DNA from: Cristatella mucedo
Lineage: Eukaryota; Bryozoa; Phylactolaemata; Cristatellidae
Direction of reading: 5' to 3'
DNA length: 64,000 nucleotides
Assembly: GCA_009760855.2 (NCBI GenBank)
Contig: WPIO01000008.1
Location: 10,016,001 to 10,080,000, forward strand
The translations under genes were made by a program, and so were the position numbers. The notes below the pieces were generated by a model, which did no database searches, was not told the origin of the DNA, and worked only from the letters and a program-made list of their open reading frames with translations. Position 1 is the first letter of the stretch; the number at the start of each line of letters is the position of its first letter. Shown here in pieces: positions 10,513 to 56,904 of the stretch.

Positions 10513-13039
10513 TCTATCTCTCTCTGTCTATTTCTCTCTTCAAGGTTGTGAAAGTATTTGCACAGTGGCTGAATTTCGTACCGGTTTTGGCTTGCCGCCT
10601 CGTCGTTTTGGGCGCTCGGCAGACCTTTGGCACCTCTTTGGCAGTCTTTGCGAAGCAACGTGTTTCTGCTGCAGTAATGGCTGAGTTTGCTCATTCTATG
10701 TCACGAATTGCTCTTTGTAGACCACCATTCGACAGGAGGGGCTTCTGAGCAAACTAAAGTCTGCTCGGCAGAGACCTGTGGAAGACACAGGGGTTCCGAT
10801 CGTGGCTGCTTCGGAGCACCTTAACAAAGGTAAGAAGGCACTGAGCTGCCATCCATGCAGACTCGACACTTTCCTGCCATTCTGCACTTGGCAGCAGTGA
10901 CATGCCCCTTCCTCTAAGCCAGCCAGGCCAAGATGCAGTGCTCCTTATGGCTGCCGAATGACTGCATACTGCAATTACCTCCCCTGAACAAATAACCTAA
11001 ACAATGATTTGATTGTTGGACCAATCTGTTCAGTATTTAGGTTGGGATTATCTTGAAGCCTGCACAATCTGCTGTGTCTATGCAACTTAGTTTATCTATA
11101 TTGACTAGACTTTGAGATTTTGGTTGTCTTATTTAATAACAAAGTGTCTTTATAGCATGATGTAAGCACATTAAGGATGCATCACAGGGAATCACTAAAT
11201 TCAATTACAGTCATGAGATATGACAGAGTTCAGTAATGACTTCCAGGCTTTGGGCGCATACGAACTAAAGTCACAGTCTCCAAAGGATTTTAGATTTGTA
11301 CAAACAGTTGGATTCCGAAAAGTGGTTGGTGCAATGCTTAGCCTGGTGGGGCAGTAGATGTAATAGATAGGCTGGAGCCAAAGAATGAAGAAACCTAAAA
11401 TTGAGTGACAAAACCTTGAAGTCGATGCATTGCTTGACTGGGAGCCAGTGCAGGTCAGCAATAAGCTGTGTGATGTGGCAAGTACGATGCTTACGACAGA
11501 CAAGCCCAGCTGCAGAGTTTTGCACCTCCTGTAAGCGCCTGAGTGCACAGGCCAGTAGACCAGCAAGCAGTGAGTTACAGAAGTCAAGACGGGATGTCAC
11601 AAATGCATGGACCAATTCAGGTGTGGTATCCCTGTCTAAACAAGCCTGAATTGTAGCAATGTTATCTAGCTGAAAGTTGGCAGACTTGTCTGTGGTGCTG
11701 ATGTGGTCGTCTAACGAAAGGTCACCTTGGAATATAGCACATATATTTCGTGCAGATTCAACAGGAGATATGCTGCCAGAGCCGATTGTGAGCATGAGCC
11801 TTTCCAATTTTTTAATCACACTTGGTTTTTTCATAACTAGCAAGTTGGTATTTTACACCATTCAATTTAAGAAAGTTTGCTGCCATCCATGTGCAGATGT
11901 CATCAGTACATGCAGCAAGGGAGTTGAGAGAATTCGACGTGCTGGAAGGCTGAGCGGGATCAAAGCAAAGGTACAAGTGAGTGTCATCTGTATATAAGTG
12001 AAAGCCTAGGCTATGCTTTGCAATCATATCGGTAAGAGGGAGAGTATAAACCGTGAAAAGAACGGGACCAAGCACTGAGCCCTGAGGTACCTCATATTTC
12101 AGAGGTTGCCATGGAAGTAAAATTAAGGATATTTGTCTTTTGAATATTTGTATTTTGAAAGGTAACATAAACAATTATTCGATTAATGGACTAATCTTTT
12201 CTGTATTGTCTCAGCATTGACCCAGAGGATCTCCGAAAGATTTCGATGCAATGTAAGAAATGCAGCGGCGAATGGAAACCCATGTACACTAGAGGTGTGA
12301 GGCTGCACTAGAGGAGCTCCGTGTCACACGTGGTTGGGGGGATCTTGAAGTCGATTCGACGCTTTAATGGTGTCGATTTTGTGTAGCAGTTTTCAGGTTT
12401 GAGAATCCTTTTGGCATGCCACTATTGTTTTCGTTGGCCTGCATGCTGAACTCGGAACACACTTTGATAAGAGTGATGTCTTATTAGCTGTAGTCAGTGA
12501 TTCCTCACATCCCCCCTCCCCACACCTCTCCCTTAGGGAACCTTTGGAAAGGTCTGTACAACAGATTCTGACCTGAGCTCACAGCTGTAGAGCACCAGTA
12601 TCTTTGGGTGCACAACTTACCTTTGGCAGCTCTTCGTGTGCACCGATGTTTTAAACTTAATAGACGACACTCACTTGGTTACCAATCCTGTTTCTTTCCG
12701 GACATTTTTAGTTCTTGTGGCCTTCGTTATCAAAGGTAGCCCATCTCGAATCGCCAGCTTTTCAGCAGCAACGCCAAAGTTTGGCCGTAGTTAAACCGGT
12801 GATCAGTGTCCCGTAGGCAATGCATTTAGCAAACTGTTGCTTGTGGTGTCATGACCAGGCTTGTGGTGACCTTTTCACGTATGGACATGAGTTGGTTTGA
12901 CTTTGTCATGCTGCTCACTTGCATTGCAGATGCCTCATCATTGCTCAACTCGGTCGAGCTGTTGACCAAGGAACTGCTCGGACCCACCAAAGCGTCGTCT
13001 CGGTCGTCATGCTCATCTTCGGATGACGAGAGTGACTGA
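4324..13039 (+). CDS. Unrecognised 274-residue coiled-coil protein, seven exons
   Basis: Exons: 4324-4486, 7494-7564, 9106-9223, 9579-9680, 9854-10005, 10721-10829, 12930-13039. Every intron has GT-AG ends, all junction phases agree, and the lengths sum to 825 nt (274 residues plus stop). The start is the first ATG after an in-frame TAA at 4318-4320. A Ser/Ala-rich N-terminus leads into a nearly continuous predicted coiled coil (ELEQVTKERDLLASKLQED, QTKVQSLEDIIRSKNE, ENELELLRSRSAQLEQ, then ELRRRCAESTERLEAENR), followed by a proline-containing break (exon 6) and an acidic serine tail ending SSCSSSDDESD, a likely CK2-type target. The composition fits a centrosomal, ciliary or scaffold protein, but I know no specific family match and assign no function. 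Introns hold LINE-A, LINE-B and CT microsatellites. A decayed second copy lies at 57246-60885. Confidence 0.8.
4925..5285 (-). mobile_element. LINE-B 3' fragment, minus strand
   Basis: Reverse complement of the LINE-B end: ATCTCCGTCTGTAACTCCAC at the 3' tail, then GGTAGCCAACAGACTTCATC and GTCGTTGCATAAGAATTTTA. It lies in intron 1 of the coiled-coil gene, antisense to it. It falls outside the segment shared with the second copy. Confidence 0.8.
5573..5602 (+). repeat. CT microsatellite
   Basis: A short pyrimidine tract with CT units inside intron 1 of the coiled-coil gene. Its homologous position in the second copy has grown to about 44 units (50626-50713). Confidence 0.9.
5845..5973 (+). other. 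42-codon ORF starting MGNVLGS, kept in both copies
   Basis: The frame reads MGNVLGSCQSLDMQ and ends SKSTRPGS before TAA. The second copy (50925-51053) is open over the same length with two amino-acid changes (S7N, R23G) and no silent change. The minus strand is also open here in both copies. The N-terminal MG could suit myristoylation, but the lack of silent changes argues against purifying selection. It lies inside intron 1, so it is more likely chance or an unrecognised repeat than a gene. Confidence 0.15.
6290..6656 (+). mobile_element. LINE-A 3' fragment with empty site in copy 2
   Basis: The segment runs from CGTGCCTTTAGTTCATATGC through AAGAGATTGAGTTCTCTGAG to an imperfect ATT tail. 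In the second copy (around 51424) the flanks join directly: ACTGGTGCTAC runs into TCAGAGC. This is an empty site, so the insertion came after the duplication. Any target-site duplication is only 2-3 bp (TAC) and is blurred by the tail. Confidence 0.9.
8401..8470 (+). repeat. CT microsatellite, about 35 units
   Basis: A nearly pure CT tract in intron 2 of the coiled-coil gene, pyrimidine on the sense strand. It marks the left edge of the block nearly identical to 58720-60285 in the second copy. Confidence 0.95.
10142..10203 (+). repeat. Tandem repeat, about 30-bp unit, two copies
   Basis: The unit GCTGCAGCAAGTGAGCAGG plus CCGTGAGTGT occurs twice, followed by the start of a third. The segment missing from the second copy (10170-12680) has its left breakpoint inside this repeat: there GCAGCAAGTGAGCAGG runs straight into TTACCAATC. 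Confidence 0.85.
10434..10500 (+). repeat. CT microsatellite, about 33 units
   Basis: A pure CT tract in intron 5 of the coiled-coil gene, followed by TATCTCTC variants. It lies in the part absent from the second copy. Confidence 0.95.
11155..12175 (-). mobile_element. LINE-A, RT palm to 3' region, minus strand
   Basis: Read on the minus strand from 12175, the RT shows PQGSVLGPVLFTVYTLPLTD then GFHLYTDDTHLYLCF, where YTDD is the catalytic box. This is followed by ICTWMAANFLKLNG, VTSRLDFCNSLLAGL and a SSYAPKAWKSL segment. The terminal ATT tail is missing. It is broken by frameshifts. It lies antisense in intron 6 of the coiled-coil gene, within the part absent from the second copy. Confidence 0.85.
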
Positions 13040-46849: not shown

Positions 46850-48176
46850 CGTCAATTATGCATTAGCAAAAGAAACGCCTCGGAGCAGACCGGCTGGGGG
46901 TGCTGGCCCCGATTTGAGTCAGGGCTCGTCTGGTGGGAGCTGAGTATCAGTTCGTGTTGGTGTTTCTAGCATTGTCTCGAACCGCTCAGTGAGTTCTCTC
47001 GAGCTTTACTGTGAGTCTCTCTAACTTTGTGGTTATCTGGCCTCCTCCAACTCCGGTGGCCCAACTCAACGCTTGTCTTTGGAATCGTTGCTTAACGTGC
47101 AATAGGCCCCTATTCATAAGCGACCTTATTTCTGAAAAAGGCATCGATCTGCTCGCGTTGACTGAAAGTTGTCTAAAATTGCAAAACTGCCCGACAAGTA
47201 ATCACGCAATGTCGAGTGGCTCCTCCTTTCGCACCCCTAGGTCAATCAAAACTGGCAGTGGAGTCGCTACTATTACGAGCTCGAATTTCAATTTTAATCC
47301 ATTTGCAGTATCCTCGAAGCAGTCTTTCGAATCTAGCCTTGATTTCTTCCGACAACATGCTACCGATGGTGGCAGTAGTCTATCGCCTACCAGGTACCAA
47401 TTCTTCCTTTATCCCTGACTTATCTGATGTCTTTCGATTCTGTGTGCAAGAAATAGATCTTTCCACATTATGGGTGATTTTGACGGTCAATTTGATAGCT
47501 TATCTGACGCCTTCAGCACCGAATTTTGTTTTGACTGATTCATTGTCTCGTGTGGCTCATGTGCATAGCAAGGGTCACACACTTGACCAAATGTTTTCAC
47601 ACAACCACTCTGTCATTACCAATTATTAGCAAATTCTGCTTGTCTGACCACATGCAGATCTCTTCAATGTGTGCCCTCCTATAAAATTGCATGTGAATCT
47701 CAAAACCCTCGACGTTGCTGCTGTTCGTGCGAGAATATCTACTTTGCCTCTGCTCCTCAATCACTCTTCTGACCTGTCATTGTTAGTAGATTGTTACAAC
47801 ATGATTGTCACTAGCTGACATGCTTGATGAGTTTGCACCTCTGACTAAGAGCACTTCGCCCTCACCCAGACGGCCTTGGGTTTACCGCAGACATTACACT
47901 AGCTATACGTATTAAGTGCGAACTTGAAAAAGCACACTAGCTATACCAAGTGCAAGCTTGAAAAAGCGTTCATAAGATCAGGAATGCCTGTCTATTGACA
48001 GGCACACTAGGACTACTGTAGATCGTACCAATCAATCAATAAAGGCTAAGGCTAGCTTCTATAAAAACTTTGTTGAATCCCGGGTGTACAATCTAAAAGT
48101 GCTGATGCCTACGATGAACCACCTTAATCACTCCCGGGTTAGCTCCTTACCTTGCGATCCCTGTGATTATCCAGCT

Positions 48177-48343
48177 GAGCGGTTCTCAACCTGTGGGTCG
48201 CGATTCCTTTGGTGGTCCAACGACCTTTTCACAGGGGTCGCCTAAGAAATTACGCATTTTGTACACTAATTTTATGGTTGGGGTGTCGCCACAACATGAA
48301 CTGTGTAATAGGGTCGCAGCATTAGGGTTGTTGAGAACCGCTG
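48177..48343 (+). mobile_element. SPIN-like hAT MITE, 167 bp
   Basis: The ends are inverted repeats, GAGCGGTTCTCAACCTGTGG at the left and GGGTTGTTGAGAACCGCTG at the right. Inside, GGTCGCGATTCCTTTGGTGG, CGACCTTTTCACAGGGGTCG, CCTAAGA and TAATTTTATGGTTGGGGTGT closely follow what I remember of the SPIN (Space Invaders) non-autonomous hAT consensus, also seen as URR1 in rodents. Flanks ATCCAGCT and ATCTAGTT match at 6 of 8 positions and fit an 8-bp hAT target duplication with a central TA, as in the Buster group. It carries no transposase and sits inside the decayed LINE-A. Confidence 0.85.
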
Positions 48344-49071
48344 ATCTAGTTGATCGATTCTCTAGCTTTTTTGTCAACGAGATAGCGAATAGACATGTCG
48401 ACAAGAATAGCGACTCAATCCCTAAGATCGCAGCACCCCATGGAATCTTATCCCTTACTTCCACGCGGCACATCAAGATCTACATTCAAGGTCGTTAGTG
48501 ACCTTAAACCTGAAGTTCATATCTCAGTCTAAAAAGACAGCTAGTACTCTGGACCTTATTCCCACTATCCTGTTTTTACGTTCTGCTGCTGCCATGCATG
48601 ACTAATATCGTAGATGTCATTTGTCTAGGGTCATGTCACAGCACTTTTCAAAAAGGTTGTAATCAGGCCACTACTCAAGAAAGCCACATTAAATCAAGAC
48701 AACTTGAGCAACTTCCATCCAGTCTCCCTTCTACCGTTCCTATCAAAAACACAAACGAGTCGTGGCAGACCAGCTGAACTCATGTCTTGAAAATTCAAAC
48801 CTTCCTAGTAAGTTACAGTCAAGCTAATCACTCCAGAGAGTCGGCATTTCATCGAAGGAATAGCGACCTACTTAGAAAGGTAGACATAGGTAGATTATAT
48901 GGGCATGTTGCTCGATTTTTCAGCAGTTGATGCTATCGAACACCAAGTTCTTCTCGAGCCCCTCTCATCACACTGGCATTGCAAGGCAATAGTTTGGTCT
49001 TACTTATCTCAGTGGGAGCCTCCATAGTATGGATGCGAATGGACAGAGATTATCTGAGGAACCTCATTCAA

Positions 49072-51889: not shown

Positions 51890-54785
51890 CCGCAATCCAC
51901 TCTAATTATGCTAACATCGAACGGTCATTAGCGTTGCCGAGCTCCAATTACGCTGATATTGTAATACACGTTCGATTTTATCTGTCCAAAAAATTCCATA
52001 TCGCGTGCACACCCGGACTTACGAAAATGAGCTTTAACGCCGGACGCCTGTACCTCAGTCGACCGAAATCCATTCCAGTTCTCGTCAAATCCACCACAAA
52101 TCAGCTACGAACAGCTCCAGAAAGTTTGGAATATCGAACTAGGCTACGTGTAAAATGTACCTAGAAAATCTCAGGCGTTCTCACGAAGCCCACTGAAATA
52201 GCAGCAGTAGCCCAGGCCAATACCGCAATTCACTGCATTCCACCGTGCAACGAAAGAAATTCTTTCCGAAAATCTCCTTTTTCGATTACATATGACAGCA
52301 CACTCCCTACAATTTTCTCAGTCCGTTGCCATAGATTGCCGCGCATCGCCCTCGAACGTATGTTCGAGATTAGTTAAAAGGATGCGGTTGCACTTTTAAT
52401 ACAGCGTACTCTAATACACAAGAAAAATTTGATCTTCTCCCGCTATGTGGTAAGATAATTACAAATTCAAACAGCCGATTTCCAGAAAATTGGAAACAAA
52501 TTGAGGTAGATGCTGGCTTATTGCCGTCGATTGACGTGCATTGCCCTCGATTGTGCCTTTGTCGATTGTCTAAAAGGATGTGGCTGCACCTTTAATGCAG
52601 TATAGTGCAATACGCAAGAAAAGTTGGAGCTTCTCTCAGCAACTGTCGGTCCATTTGTAACGGACCGCTATGGATTGGCGTATTTTCCCGGGCCATCGCC
52701 GTCGATCACCATGCATTGCTGTCGATTTCGAACAACAGGTGAAAACTATGCGAGCACAGGTACATGTTACGTGGAATAAGAGTTGCAATTTATTGCAGCC
52801 AATCTTGTCAATTATTCACGGATTGACCCATCGGCCCCTACCATTCCTGCGGATTGTAATGCATCGCTGACAGTTAACGAGTAAAGTATCTTGAAAATGC
52901 CACGGTTTTACCTTGGACGCAGCGGAATGTTATATATAATGACTATTGGGGCTTCGAGCGGCCAATTTCTCGTCTATTTGTCGCGATATGGGGTATTGGC
53001 CCGGATCATTGCTGCCGACTGCCATTCATTGTACGCGATTGTACGTGCACGTTTGGTTGAAAGGATGTGGTTGGACTTTAAGCACAGTTCGCTGTGGCAG
53101 GTAAGATATATTTGATCTTGGCCCAGTCACTTTTCAGCGATTTTTGATGATCATAATGGATTGTCGTATTTGCCAGGGTCATTGCCGTTGATTGCCATGC
53201 ATTAACAAAGATTAAACGGTCAGAGCTGGTCGAAAGTATGTGCCGCTAGTGAGGTGTTACGTGGAATGGGAATTGGAGCTTGCTGCAGCCGATTTCTCAT
53301 CAATTTGGTTTTGGTATTGGTCCCTGCCATTGCTGTCGATTGCCGTGCATTGTTGACAACTAACTTGCAAAATAGCTTGAAAGTCCTACGATTTCACTTT
53401 TAGCATAAAGAAATAGGAAATGCGATGACAGGTGGCACTTCGTGCAGCCAATTTGTGGTCAACTTGCCACGGATTGTAGTGGATTGCTGCTACTAGCCGA
53501 ACCGTTGCTCCAGATTGCCATGCATTGGCCAATATTGTACTAGTGCAATTGCTTAAAATGATGAGGTTGACTTTAATCAGTGTGCTTTGCGACATAAATT
53601 TAAAATCGGAGGATTGCGAATCCAACTTCAGGGCATTCTGTGTCAGATGGCTGTAGATTACCGTATTGGCCCGGGCCATTGCAGTTGATTGCCGTGCATT
53701 GCTCCCGAATGATCGAGGCAATTGTAGTGAAGATGTGCGGTTACCCAATAACCAAAAATTGGAGCAACATGCAATCACTATTAGAGCTACAAGTGTACAT
53801 ATTCTGGTCGTTTTTCGGCGGGTTTCGGTAGATTGACGAACTGGCCCGGGCAGTTGCAGTCGATTGCAGTGCATTGAGGTAGAATGTGTAGTTCGTATGT
53901 ACGTGTGTATGCATGTATTGTATGCCGGTTCCTTTGATGAGCCTGTGATGTGGCCTGGACACAGGCCGGTAACCCGCTGGTGGCCAGATGGTGGATTCAC
54001 CATCAGGGTCGGCAGGTGCACTGCTGTGGTCCGCCTTTGATGTGGCACGAACCAGCCGGTGGCCAGATGGTGGATTCACAATCAGGGTCGGGCGGTGCAC
54101 AGTTGTGGTCAATGAGTCATCGGAGTCGACCAGGGGAAGAGGGGTAGAGAGGAAGTTAGTTCGCGGCGGAGCAGTTGGGGCTCACTAGCTGGGAGTAATG
54201 CTACTGGTGGATAAACGATTTAAGAACTTTAGAATGGTCGAGAAAATTACAGGGAAGTTAAGCGAGTACACAGTAACCGAAGACCAGAACAGCGTGCAAT
54301 CGTAATTAGAGCGTTTAGTGTGCGCGTTATGGTCGCTGTGCTGCGGATTACAGTGGATTTCGGCGGATTGAGGTGGATTTCGGTAAAGAACCGGGTCATT
54401 GCAGTCGATTGCAATTCATTGCATGAGAATGTCTGTGCACAATGGAGCGAAATTTTGTGAATGCACTTCTAACTGTGTCTAGTCCTATAAGCAATGTCAA
54501 TTAGATCTTTGCGATGGCGATTTGAGGATGACTGGTAGTAACATAGAGTGGATTGCCGTAGTTTCCCAGGTCATTTCAGGCGATTGCCGCCTATTGCCAC
54601 AGTGCGAGGATGCACAATTTATTTTATTTTACATGGTTGTGCACACAATACGGTGAACTTTAGTATGCAATAAAAACTGGAGCTCGGCAAAATCTATTTC
54701 GATTTCTATGTGGTGGGGGATTCAGTGAATTGAAGTGGATTGTTGTATGGGCCCGGGCAACTGCAGTCGATTGCAGCAAATTGCA
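51890..54785. repeat. Divergent satellite array, period about 175 bp
   Basis: Motifs of the type GGGCCATTGCAGTTGATTGC followed by (C/A)GTGCATTG recur at about 52330, 52525, 52690, 53010, 53180, 53335, 53505, 53680, 53850, 54400, 54575 and 54755, mostly 155-200 bp apart. Between them lie shared pieces such as TTGCACTTTTAATACAG, AAAATTGGAGC and TGGATTGCGGTAGATT. Units are strongly diverged. A segment at about 53885-54185 does not fit; it contains a GATGTGG(C)-linked direct repeat (GGTGGCCAGATGGTGGATTC at 53980 and 54059). The LINE-A copy at 54790 was inserted at the right edge. Confidence 0.75.
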
Positions 54786-54789
54786 CGAA

Positions 54790-55808
54790 AACGGCCGTGG
54801 CATTGATGACATCCGCACATGGATGGCAGCAAATTTTCTAAAACTAAACGATGACAAAACTAACTTACTAGTTATGGGCAAGCCCAGTGTGATTCAGAGA
54901 TTGGAAAGGCTGACTCTCAAAATTGGCTCTACCAGCATATCTCCTGTCGAATCAGCTCGAAATCTAGTTGTCATATTCCAAAGCGACCTCTCGTTAGACG
55001 ACCATATCAGCTCCACAGTCAAATCTGCCTATTTTCAGCTTCATAATATTGCTAAAATTCGGGCCTGTCTAGATAAGGATACCACGTCCAAGTTGGTCCA
55101 TGCATTCGTGACATCTCGTCTCGACTTCTGCAACTCAGTGCTCACTGGCCTACCAGCATGTGCGATCAGGCGATTGCAGCTGGTGCAAAACTCTGCAGCT
55201 AGGCTTGTCTTTCGTGAGCGTCGCAGTTGCCACATTACTCCACTTAACGCCGACCTGCACTGGCTACCAGTCAAGCAACGGATTGACTTCAAGGTTTTGT
55301 CGCTCACTTTTAGGTCCCTTCATCCTATGGCTCCAGCCTATCTCTCCGACATACTACCCCATCAGGCCAAGCATCGTACCACCTGCTTTTCGGAATCCAA
55401 CAGTCTAGAAATACTTCGTACAAACCTCAAATCCTTTGGAGACCGTGCATTTAGTTCGTATGCTCCCAAAGCCTGGAACTCCCTCCCGACCTGCGTCAGA
55501 ACATCCCCTGACCTGACCACATTTAAAAGGAACTTAAAAACACCTATTTAGGACAGCATTTAGTGGGTCCCCGTGATTCGTCCTTGATGTGCTTATGCGT
55601 GCTGACACTGTGCATGCTGCCACTAACCACATTTGCATGCTGACCCTGTGCATGTCACCTCTAACCACGTTATTCATTTTGTTTGTTTTTCAAGCATGAT
55701 TTTACTTACCATTCAATTGCATTTCCCTTTGCAAGAAATGTAAAGCGCCTAGAAAGAGATTAAGTTCTCTGAGGGCGCTTTATCAAGTGCATTATTATTA
55801 TTATTATT
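54790..55808 (+). mobile_element. LINE-A 3' half, best-preserved RT C-terminus
   Basis: An uninterrupted frame to 55551 covers the RT thumb and C-terminal region: IRTWMAANFLKLNDDKTNLL, VTSRLDFCNSVLTGLPACAI, ITPLNADLHWLPVKQRIDFK and FSSYAPKAWNSLPTC, ending in TFKRNLKTPI. A UTR of about 250 bp follows, with AAAGCGCCTAGAAAGAGATT and GAGGGCGCTTTATCAAGTGC, then an ATT tail. The intact frame suggests this is one of the youngest copies. The upstream part of the frame (54730-54800) is satellite, not LINE. Confidence 0.92.
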
Positions 55809-56114
55809 AAGTGGGGGTGTGCACAGCGACAATAAGTTTTTTTGGACAGACAAAATCAAACCTGTACTAAAGAATCGGCGAAAAATGTGAGCTCGGTAAT
55901 GCTAATTTCTGATCGACGTTAGCCTAATTAGAGCGGATTGCGGTAGATTTCGATGGATTTCGGTCATTCGTCGAACCCCAAACGACGGTACGGCGCACCT
56001 GGACCGCCAAAGAGCTTGAGCTTCTATTCACAGAAGCGGCAGAAAAGCCTTAGCAGCTTTAACCACAGCTTTCAGCAGGCAATAAAGGATTATCAGCTAC
56101 CGAACTCCATCACC

Positions 56115-56692
56115 GATCGCCGACCTGCACTGGCTCCCAATCAAGCAACGGATTGACTTCAAGGTTTTGTCGCTCACTTTTAGGTCACTTCATTCTTTGG
56201 CTCCAGCTTATCTCTCAGATCTACTCCCCCACCAGGCCAAGCACCGTACCACCCGCTTTTCGGAATCCAACAGTCTAGAAATACCTCGTACAAACCTTAA
56301 ATTCTTCGGAGACCGTGCATTTAGTTCGTATGCTCCCAAAGCCTGGAACTCCCTCCCGACCTGTGTCAGAGCATCCCCTGACCTGACCACATTTAAAAGG
56401 AACTTAAATCACACCTATTTAGGACAGCATTTAGTGGGTCCCTTTGATTCGTCCTTGATGTGCTTATACGAGCTGGCACTGTGCATGCTGTCACTAACCA
56501 CATTTGCATGCTGACCATATGCATGTCACCCCTAGCCATGTTATTCATGTTGTTTGTTCATCAAGCATGATATTACTCACCATTCAATTGCATTTCCCTT
56601 TGCAGCAAATGTAAAGCGCCTAGAAAGAGATTGAGTTCTCTGAGGGCGCTTTATTAAGTGCATTATCATTATATTATTATTATTATCACCCA
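56115..56692 (+). mobile_element. LINE-A 3' fragment absent from copy 1
   Basis: It starts at GATCGCCGACCTGCACTGGC and is open through SLHSLAPAYLSDLLPHQAKH and AFSSYAPKAWNSLPTC, with a complete 3' end and tail. In copy 1 the flanks CTCCATCACC and GAATTGGGTCGTGAA are continuous (about 7212-7230). It is nearly as well preserved as the 54790 copy. Confidence 0.92.
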
Positions 56693-56743
56693 ACTTGGGT
56701 CGCGAAATGCCAGCAGTTTGCTCTTCGGGTAAAGACCTAGGGG

Positions 56744-56832
56744 CATAATAATAATAATAATAATAATATTGCACTTGATAAAGCGCCCTCAGAGAACTTA
56801 ATCTCTTTCTAGGCGCTTTACATTTGCTGCAA
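56744..56832 (-). mobile_element. LINE-A 3' stub, minus strand, absent from copy 1
   Basis: An AAT tail followed by TTGCACTTGATAAAGCGCCC, TCAGAGAACTTAATCTCTTT and CTAGGCGCTTTACATTTGCT. Copy 1 has GGGGCACCACTTTATTGGC at the corresponding place. Confidence 0.85.
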
Positions 56833-56904
56833 AGTGATACACAATCACTGTAGACGTAGCTAGATGCATTTTGGGTAATCCATTAGCGCCCAGCCTCTTT
56901 GGGA

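Follow-up and report, generated by a model that had tools for sequence, protein, structure and literature searches.

At positions 48177..48343 on the forward strand of the window, by which we mean the whole 64,000-nucleotide stretch analyzed (G000:C676:10016001-10080000, from a 572-Mb assembly of 688 contigs), lies a decayed non-autonomous hAT MITE of 167 bp with SPIN-family sequence. The first-pass annotation had described an element of this length with terminal inverted repeats, and these are present at 48177..48192 (+) and 48328..48343 (−), agreeing at 13 of 16 positions. The left subterminal block (48178..48247, +) matches a provisional SPIN/URR1-type consensus at 64/70 positions, and the right one (48267..48343, +) matches the same provisional consensus in 67/80 columns with 4 gaps, as well as a mouse Adh5-locus sequence in print at 52/66. 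Two internal blocks named in that annotation could be placed at 48234-48247 and 48270-48286. The element is flanked by an 8-bp target site duplication, ATCCAGCT at 48169..48176 and ATCTAGTT at 48344..48351, whose copies agree at 6/8 positions. The duplication claimed earlier is thus real, but its central TA occurs in the right copy only, the left having CA.

Together with the target copies, the inverted pair appears in a repeat listing of the window as 26 nt at 81% complementarity. The element contains two exact 12-mer inverted pairs, against 0-10 at such spacing in 20 dinucleotide-shuffled versions of the window. Because shuffling yields comparable pairs, the terminal inverted repeat by itself is weak evidence, and we dropped it as a stand-alone argument. 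It is the genome-wide family, not the inverted repeat, that raises the element above chance. An Rfam scan of the window at gathering thresholds returned 0 matches.

The insertion lies within an old repeat, LINE-like by eye, at 47954..48384 (+; limits from the alignment with L062 only). Once the element and one target copy are removed, the joined flanks form a single open LINE-like frame (..CDYPADRFSSFFVNEIANRHVDKNS..), and MITE-free copies of the repeat align across the joined site at the modest identities of 192/261 (L062, passing the junction ungapped) and 194/272 (L064, with a 2-base gap near the junction). These related empty sites support insertion of the element. A Pfam scan of the neighboring frame at 46993-47418 found no match. 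Further repeated frames judged LINE-like by eye occur in the window at 54664-55551, 56086-56514, and 11271-11852 (..DLHWLPVKQRIDFKVLSLTFRSLH..); scans of 54664-55551 and 11271-11852 against Pfam also returned no match. Separately, a long inverted repeat at 56598-56834 (arms about 56598-56654 and 56778-56834) is perhaps another MITE, and a sequence similar to it flanks L071, one of the Buster-group hAT copies described below.

Searching the genome with the element gave 1742 first-look candidates, and the best 40, once scored, all matched (40/40, E ≤ 3.6e-26) on 34 contigs. A 32-nt left-end pattern was found at 1060 places with ≤3 mismatches and its reversed version at none, so that counting further copies, a check proposed in the first-pass annotation, puts the family at ~1000. 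The family consensus is ~185 bp long and runs from CAGCGGTTCTCAACC.. to ..GGTTGAGAACCACTG. We read 20 left ends, the first among 78 exact ones listed with C66 skipped, and 19 of the 20 extended to a right end (15 with an intact CC[AG]CTG, 4 with altered last bases), the exception being L102. Target copies agreed at ≥6/8 positions in 21/30 copies and at 8/8 in 4/30. These 30 include the window copy and the L015/L021 pair, which is one duplicated insertion (99.4% identical), and two of the remaining nine are cut at the right end. The features of hAT membership are therefore in place: an 8-bp target duplication, short terminal inverted repeats in a recurrent mobile family, and empty sites. The consensus matched nothing in phage and plasmid collections; three exact patterns were found 0 times each in viral contigs, and one pattern 0 times in a genome-contig collection.

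Compared with the consensus, the window copy is identical in 148/187 columns, 22 of the columns being gaps, and it carries an internal deletion and an altered first base (GAG for CAG). Its distance (K) from the consensus is 0.118 or 0.170, depending on the alignment, and this range of 0.12-0.17 fits the earlier description of the copy as not very young. Mean K from the consensus was 0.099 for 19 exact-left-end copies (first 36 positions omitted, L102 dropped) and 0.082 for 30 copies, or 0.097 against a consensus of those 30 alone, with both samples biased toward well-preserved copies. Mean pairwise K among 48 copies (L021 dropped) was 0.157. Copies are thus almost two times as far from one another as from the consensus, a pattern as after a burst. 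Still, copies 8-10% from their consensus do not establish recency.

To place the family, we used as a lead a provisional SPIN/URR1-type rodent consensus in place of a repeat-library entry. SPIN/URR1, non-autonomous hAT elements of the Buster/Charlie group in rodents and other tetrapods, have the same terminal inverted repeats, 8-bp target duplication, and subterminal blocks. The family consensus agrees with the provisional sequence at 84/85 positions of the left end and 80/81 of the right (read off the alignment). Over the full length, only 177/225 columns agree, with 38 gaps, because the middle of the window family differs: a short middle of its own (about ACGCATTTCCACATTTTGCACAC) replaces the SPIN/URR1 internal segment. 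Since the match at the ends may not be independent of the window sequence, we searched the genome with the internal segment of the provisional consensus. The first few and last ~22 bases of this 90-nt query are common to the window family, and its middle (~55 nt) is absent there and therefore cannot have been prompted by the window. Of 107 candidates, 40 were scored and 40/40 matched at 85-92% (best E 1.2e-24). Every alignment began at query base 9-15 and ended at 87-90, and therefore covers the middle of the segment.

The window copy and its subfamily thus lack the SPIN internal segment, but a longer subfamily within this genome has it. We read seven of the 40 places (L116-L122), and all seven contained it. 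The SPIN left end was also found in L116, L117, L121, and L122, two of which do not match over their first five bases; within the stretch first read, no matching left end was seen in L119 or L120, and L118 is without either tip. A hand-drawn majority of the right part of this subfamily agrees with the provisional SPIN consensus in 136/141 columns (one 3-base gap, two substitutions). The seven copies, a sample of best hits, lie 0.042-0.084 from that majority. Compared with SPIN/URR1, the longer forms here carry extra internal sequence, in one case within an element of 642 bp (L123, which includes L119; G000:C442) that has SPIN ends, the left one further out, and flanks without a matching duplication. 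The internal sequence of this 642-bp element has no similarity to a transposase.

Fragments of mouse sequence in print, which we take to be SPIN and which their papers do not name so, also fit the family. They were found through 14-17-nt family strings matched against 5.39 million papers, which makes the primer matches in part a product of selection. In the excerpted source texts, mouse Ate1 primers (PMC2767504; same primers in PMC2837401) match the family consensus at 18/19 and 18/20, a mouse Kcnq1ot1 primer (PMC6221546) matches it at 18/18 locally, and a mouse Drc1 primer (PMC8522639) matches the internal segment exactly over 17 bases. A mouse Adh5-locus stretch, also from an excerpt (PMC8376875), agrees at 67/81 over the family right end and at 78/96 with the longer subfamily. 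The whole Drc1 match is itself a search string and thus selected, and the shuffle test does not allow for selection. What lies beyond the search strings, and so is unselected, is the other of the two Ate1 primers together with some 66 additional columns at the Adh5 locus. When the window copy was the target, the Kcnq1ot1 primer scored no higher than shuffles (20 vs. at most 23) and the Ate1 R2 primer was marginal (22 vs. at most 18 in shuffles). We regard the Adh5 agreement as strong and the primer matches as weaker support. The SPIN identity proposed in the first-pass annotation is thus backed by the ends, by the internal segment elsewhere in the genome, and by the mouse fragments, and placement of the element as a SPIN-family MITE appears supported, the reference being provisional.

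That annotation had also suggested looking for an autonomous transposase. hAT transposases are indeed present, but none between SPIN ends was found in the genome among the candidates scored (69 of 890 with a provisional TcBuster query and 74 of 1060 with a composite Buster protein), and where the ends of a hAT transposase were read, they differed from those of SPIN. A PDB search with provisional TcBuster gave a chance match only (E 0.17). One resident hAT is young (L061-L068): it is 3.2 kb long, with terminal inverted repeats TAGGGCTGTACCGG/CCGGTACAGCCCTA, a 640-aa transposase frame with zf-BED and Dimer_Tnp_hAT domains, 8-bp duplications, and copies mostly 98-99% identical. In a PF05699 profile search, 63/138 matches scored 69-78 bits, and 30 matches that were cut out form one family, ≥98% identical to L042 over the longest matching piece. 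This young family accounts for much of the PF05699 matches and was probably active recently. Its TAGGGCTGTACCGG ends differ from those of the MITE, and the MITE consensus had no match to L031-L060 at E ≤ 0.01. A Buster-group hAT of 2.7 kb (L070-L072, on G000 contigs C55, C442, and C645) has ends CAGGGGTGTCCAA/TTGGACACCCCTG, three copies 94-95% identical, and about 31% identity to provisional TcBuster. Among 20 further 3' flanks, the SPIN right end occurred in 0 at E ≤ 1 and GGTTGGACACCCCTG in 11. A third transposase type starts with CAGACATGGGCAAAC; no right end could be located for it.

The host is an invertebrate, as the first-pass annotation had supposed. COX1 on C688 (21,008 bp) has TGA for tryptophan, ATA at methionine positions, and in-frame AGA/AGG at serine positions, per code 5. 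Several of the AGA/AGG positions are conserved serines. A search with the mollusc hemocyanin profile PF14830 gave 0 matches, but its controls gave none either, so the result carries little weight. The gene order in the mitochondrial stretch, named by eye, is cox3-atp6-cox1-nad3. A copy of this stretch lies on the 5.6-Mb contig C166 (G000:C166:4374126-4377890, L114) at 96-97% identity with ~0.5 kb missing, and is evidently a nuclear insert. Further COX1-like pieces occur on C83, C549, and C299. C166 also carries the MITE (C166:1088315) and a longer form (C166:2499859), which ties the mitochondrion to the SPIN-holding genome.

Taking the observed anatomy, insertion, copy number, subfamilies, divergence, and invertebrate host together, the reading we consider most likely, and hold with good confidence, is that of a dead non-autonomous SPIN-family hAT MITE that amplified in an invertebrate genome after its family entered the lineage horizontally. 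After such an entry, a SPIN-type transposase acting in trans would have recognized the ends, and a cut-and-paste move, duplicating 8 bp, would have landed this copy in the old LINE-like repeat. The family would have spread to ~1000 copies of two or more forms (the window type of ~185 bp, and longer ones that carry the SPIN internal segment) and would then have stopped and decayed. Horizontal entry is favored because the consensus sequences, even through the internal segment, are near-identical to the provisional rodent SPIN. A sequence this rodent-like could also point to vertebrate contamination of the assembly, but the best 40 matches are spread over 34 contigs (five >10 Mb among those of known size) and the window copy is embedded in a repeat of the same genome. 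Moreover, AGA and AGG are stops in the vertebrate mitochondrial code, and the same mitochondrion that has them in frame in COX1 has a nuclear copy on MITE-bearing contig C166. Together, the code and that copy rule contamination out, and we put its probability as negligible.

Other readings concern how an invertebrate came by such a family. It could be a vertically inherited Buster/Charlie-type hAT of the host lineage, with SPIN-like ends kept through binding by a similar transposase. The ends of hAT elements are constrained by transposase binding, and other Buster-group transposases do occur in this genome. However, the ends of those families (CAGGGGTGTCCAA; CAGACATGGGCAAAC, left end only) are unlike SPIN ends, and a binding constraint poorly explains 136/138 ungapped identity through the internal segment. 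Vertebrates and invertebrates split >500 My ago, and neutral vertical descent does not easily account for an internal segment so alike in a rodent and an invertebrate; we regard vertical inheritance of the family as quite unlikely. Alternatively, the element might be not SPIN itself but a different family of Charlie type (OC1, hAT1, or one close to them), likewise transferred horizontally. SPIN, OC1, hAT1, and ET are found together in Rhodnius according to the excerpted report (PMC11614815), and OC1 MITEs can be of similar length (192 bp; PMC3621081, in excerpt). Still, it is an internal segment of SPIN/URR1 type that this genome holds, and we judge this alternative very unlikely, noting that OC1 and hAT1 entered the comparison by description. 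Horizontal transfer of SPIN itself is probably the best reading, with the SPIN reference being a provisional one.

SPIN is a leading case of horizontal DNA transfer among animal phyla, with vectors and a source that are still debated. It was reportedly also found in Lymnaea by Gilbert et al. in 2010. Against this background, ~1000 copies in more than one subfamily, with an internal segment near-identical to provisional rodent SPIN, would represent another countable invasion, and a named host makes donor, date, and route testable against relatives and ecology. It is also conceivable, though we think it unlikely, that the host lineage, which holds at least two SPIN subfamilies (one of them carrying an internal segment of the vertebrate type), is a SPIN reservoir or bridge, and that it may be nearer the source of the land-vertebrate invasions than known hosts.

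The first-pass annotation expected a copy in an invertebrate to extend the patchy distribution of SPIN. A further invertebrate host is indeed added, but the novelty is partial, since publications already describe SPIN from Rhodnius and a SPIN-like hAT from Biomphalaria; the finding is a further host for a known phenomenon. In its available excerpt, the Biomphalaria glabrata study describes a SPIN-like hAT with ~1,000 copies and "significant identity" to SPIN, and calls the DNA transposons of that genome not recent, without intact transposases (PMC5440852). The likeness to our family, an invertebrate host and ~1000 copies, is one of description. OC1_Das of the Tasmanian devil, as excerpted, had a MITE burst of 192-bp, star-like copies alongside an autonomous 2,571-bp element (PMC3621081). 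It resembles the present family in MITE length and burst, but is another family and has the autonomous element that was not found here. The same source, in the part available, places OC1 also in planaria (Table 1) and Rhodnius, and an excerpt of another reports SPIN in the painted turtle (PMC4054807). In Rhodnius prolixus, SPIN, OC1, hAT1, and ET are as much as ~98.1% identical to vertebrate copies, according to the excerpted text (PMC11614815). That species, too, is an invertebrate that received elements of this kind, and differs in being a blood-feeding insect.
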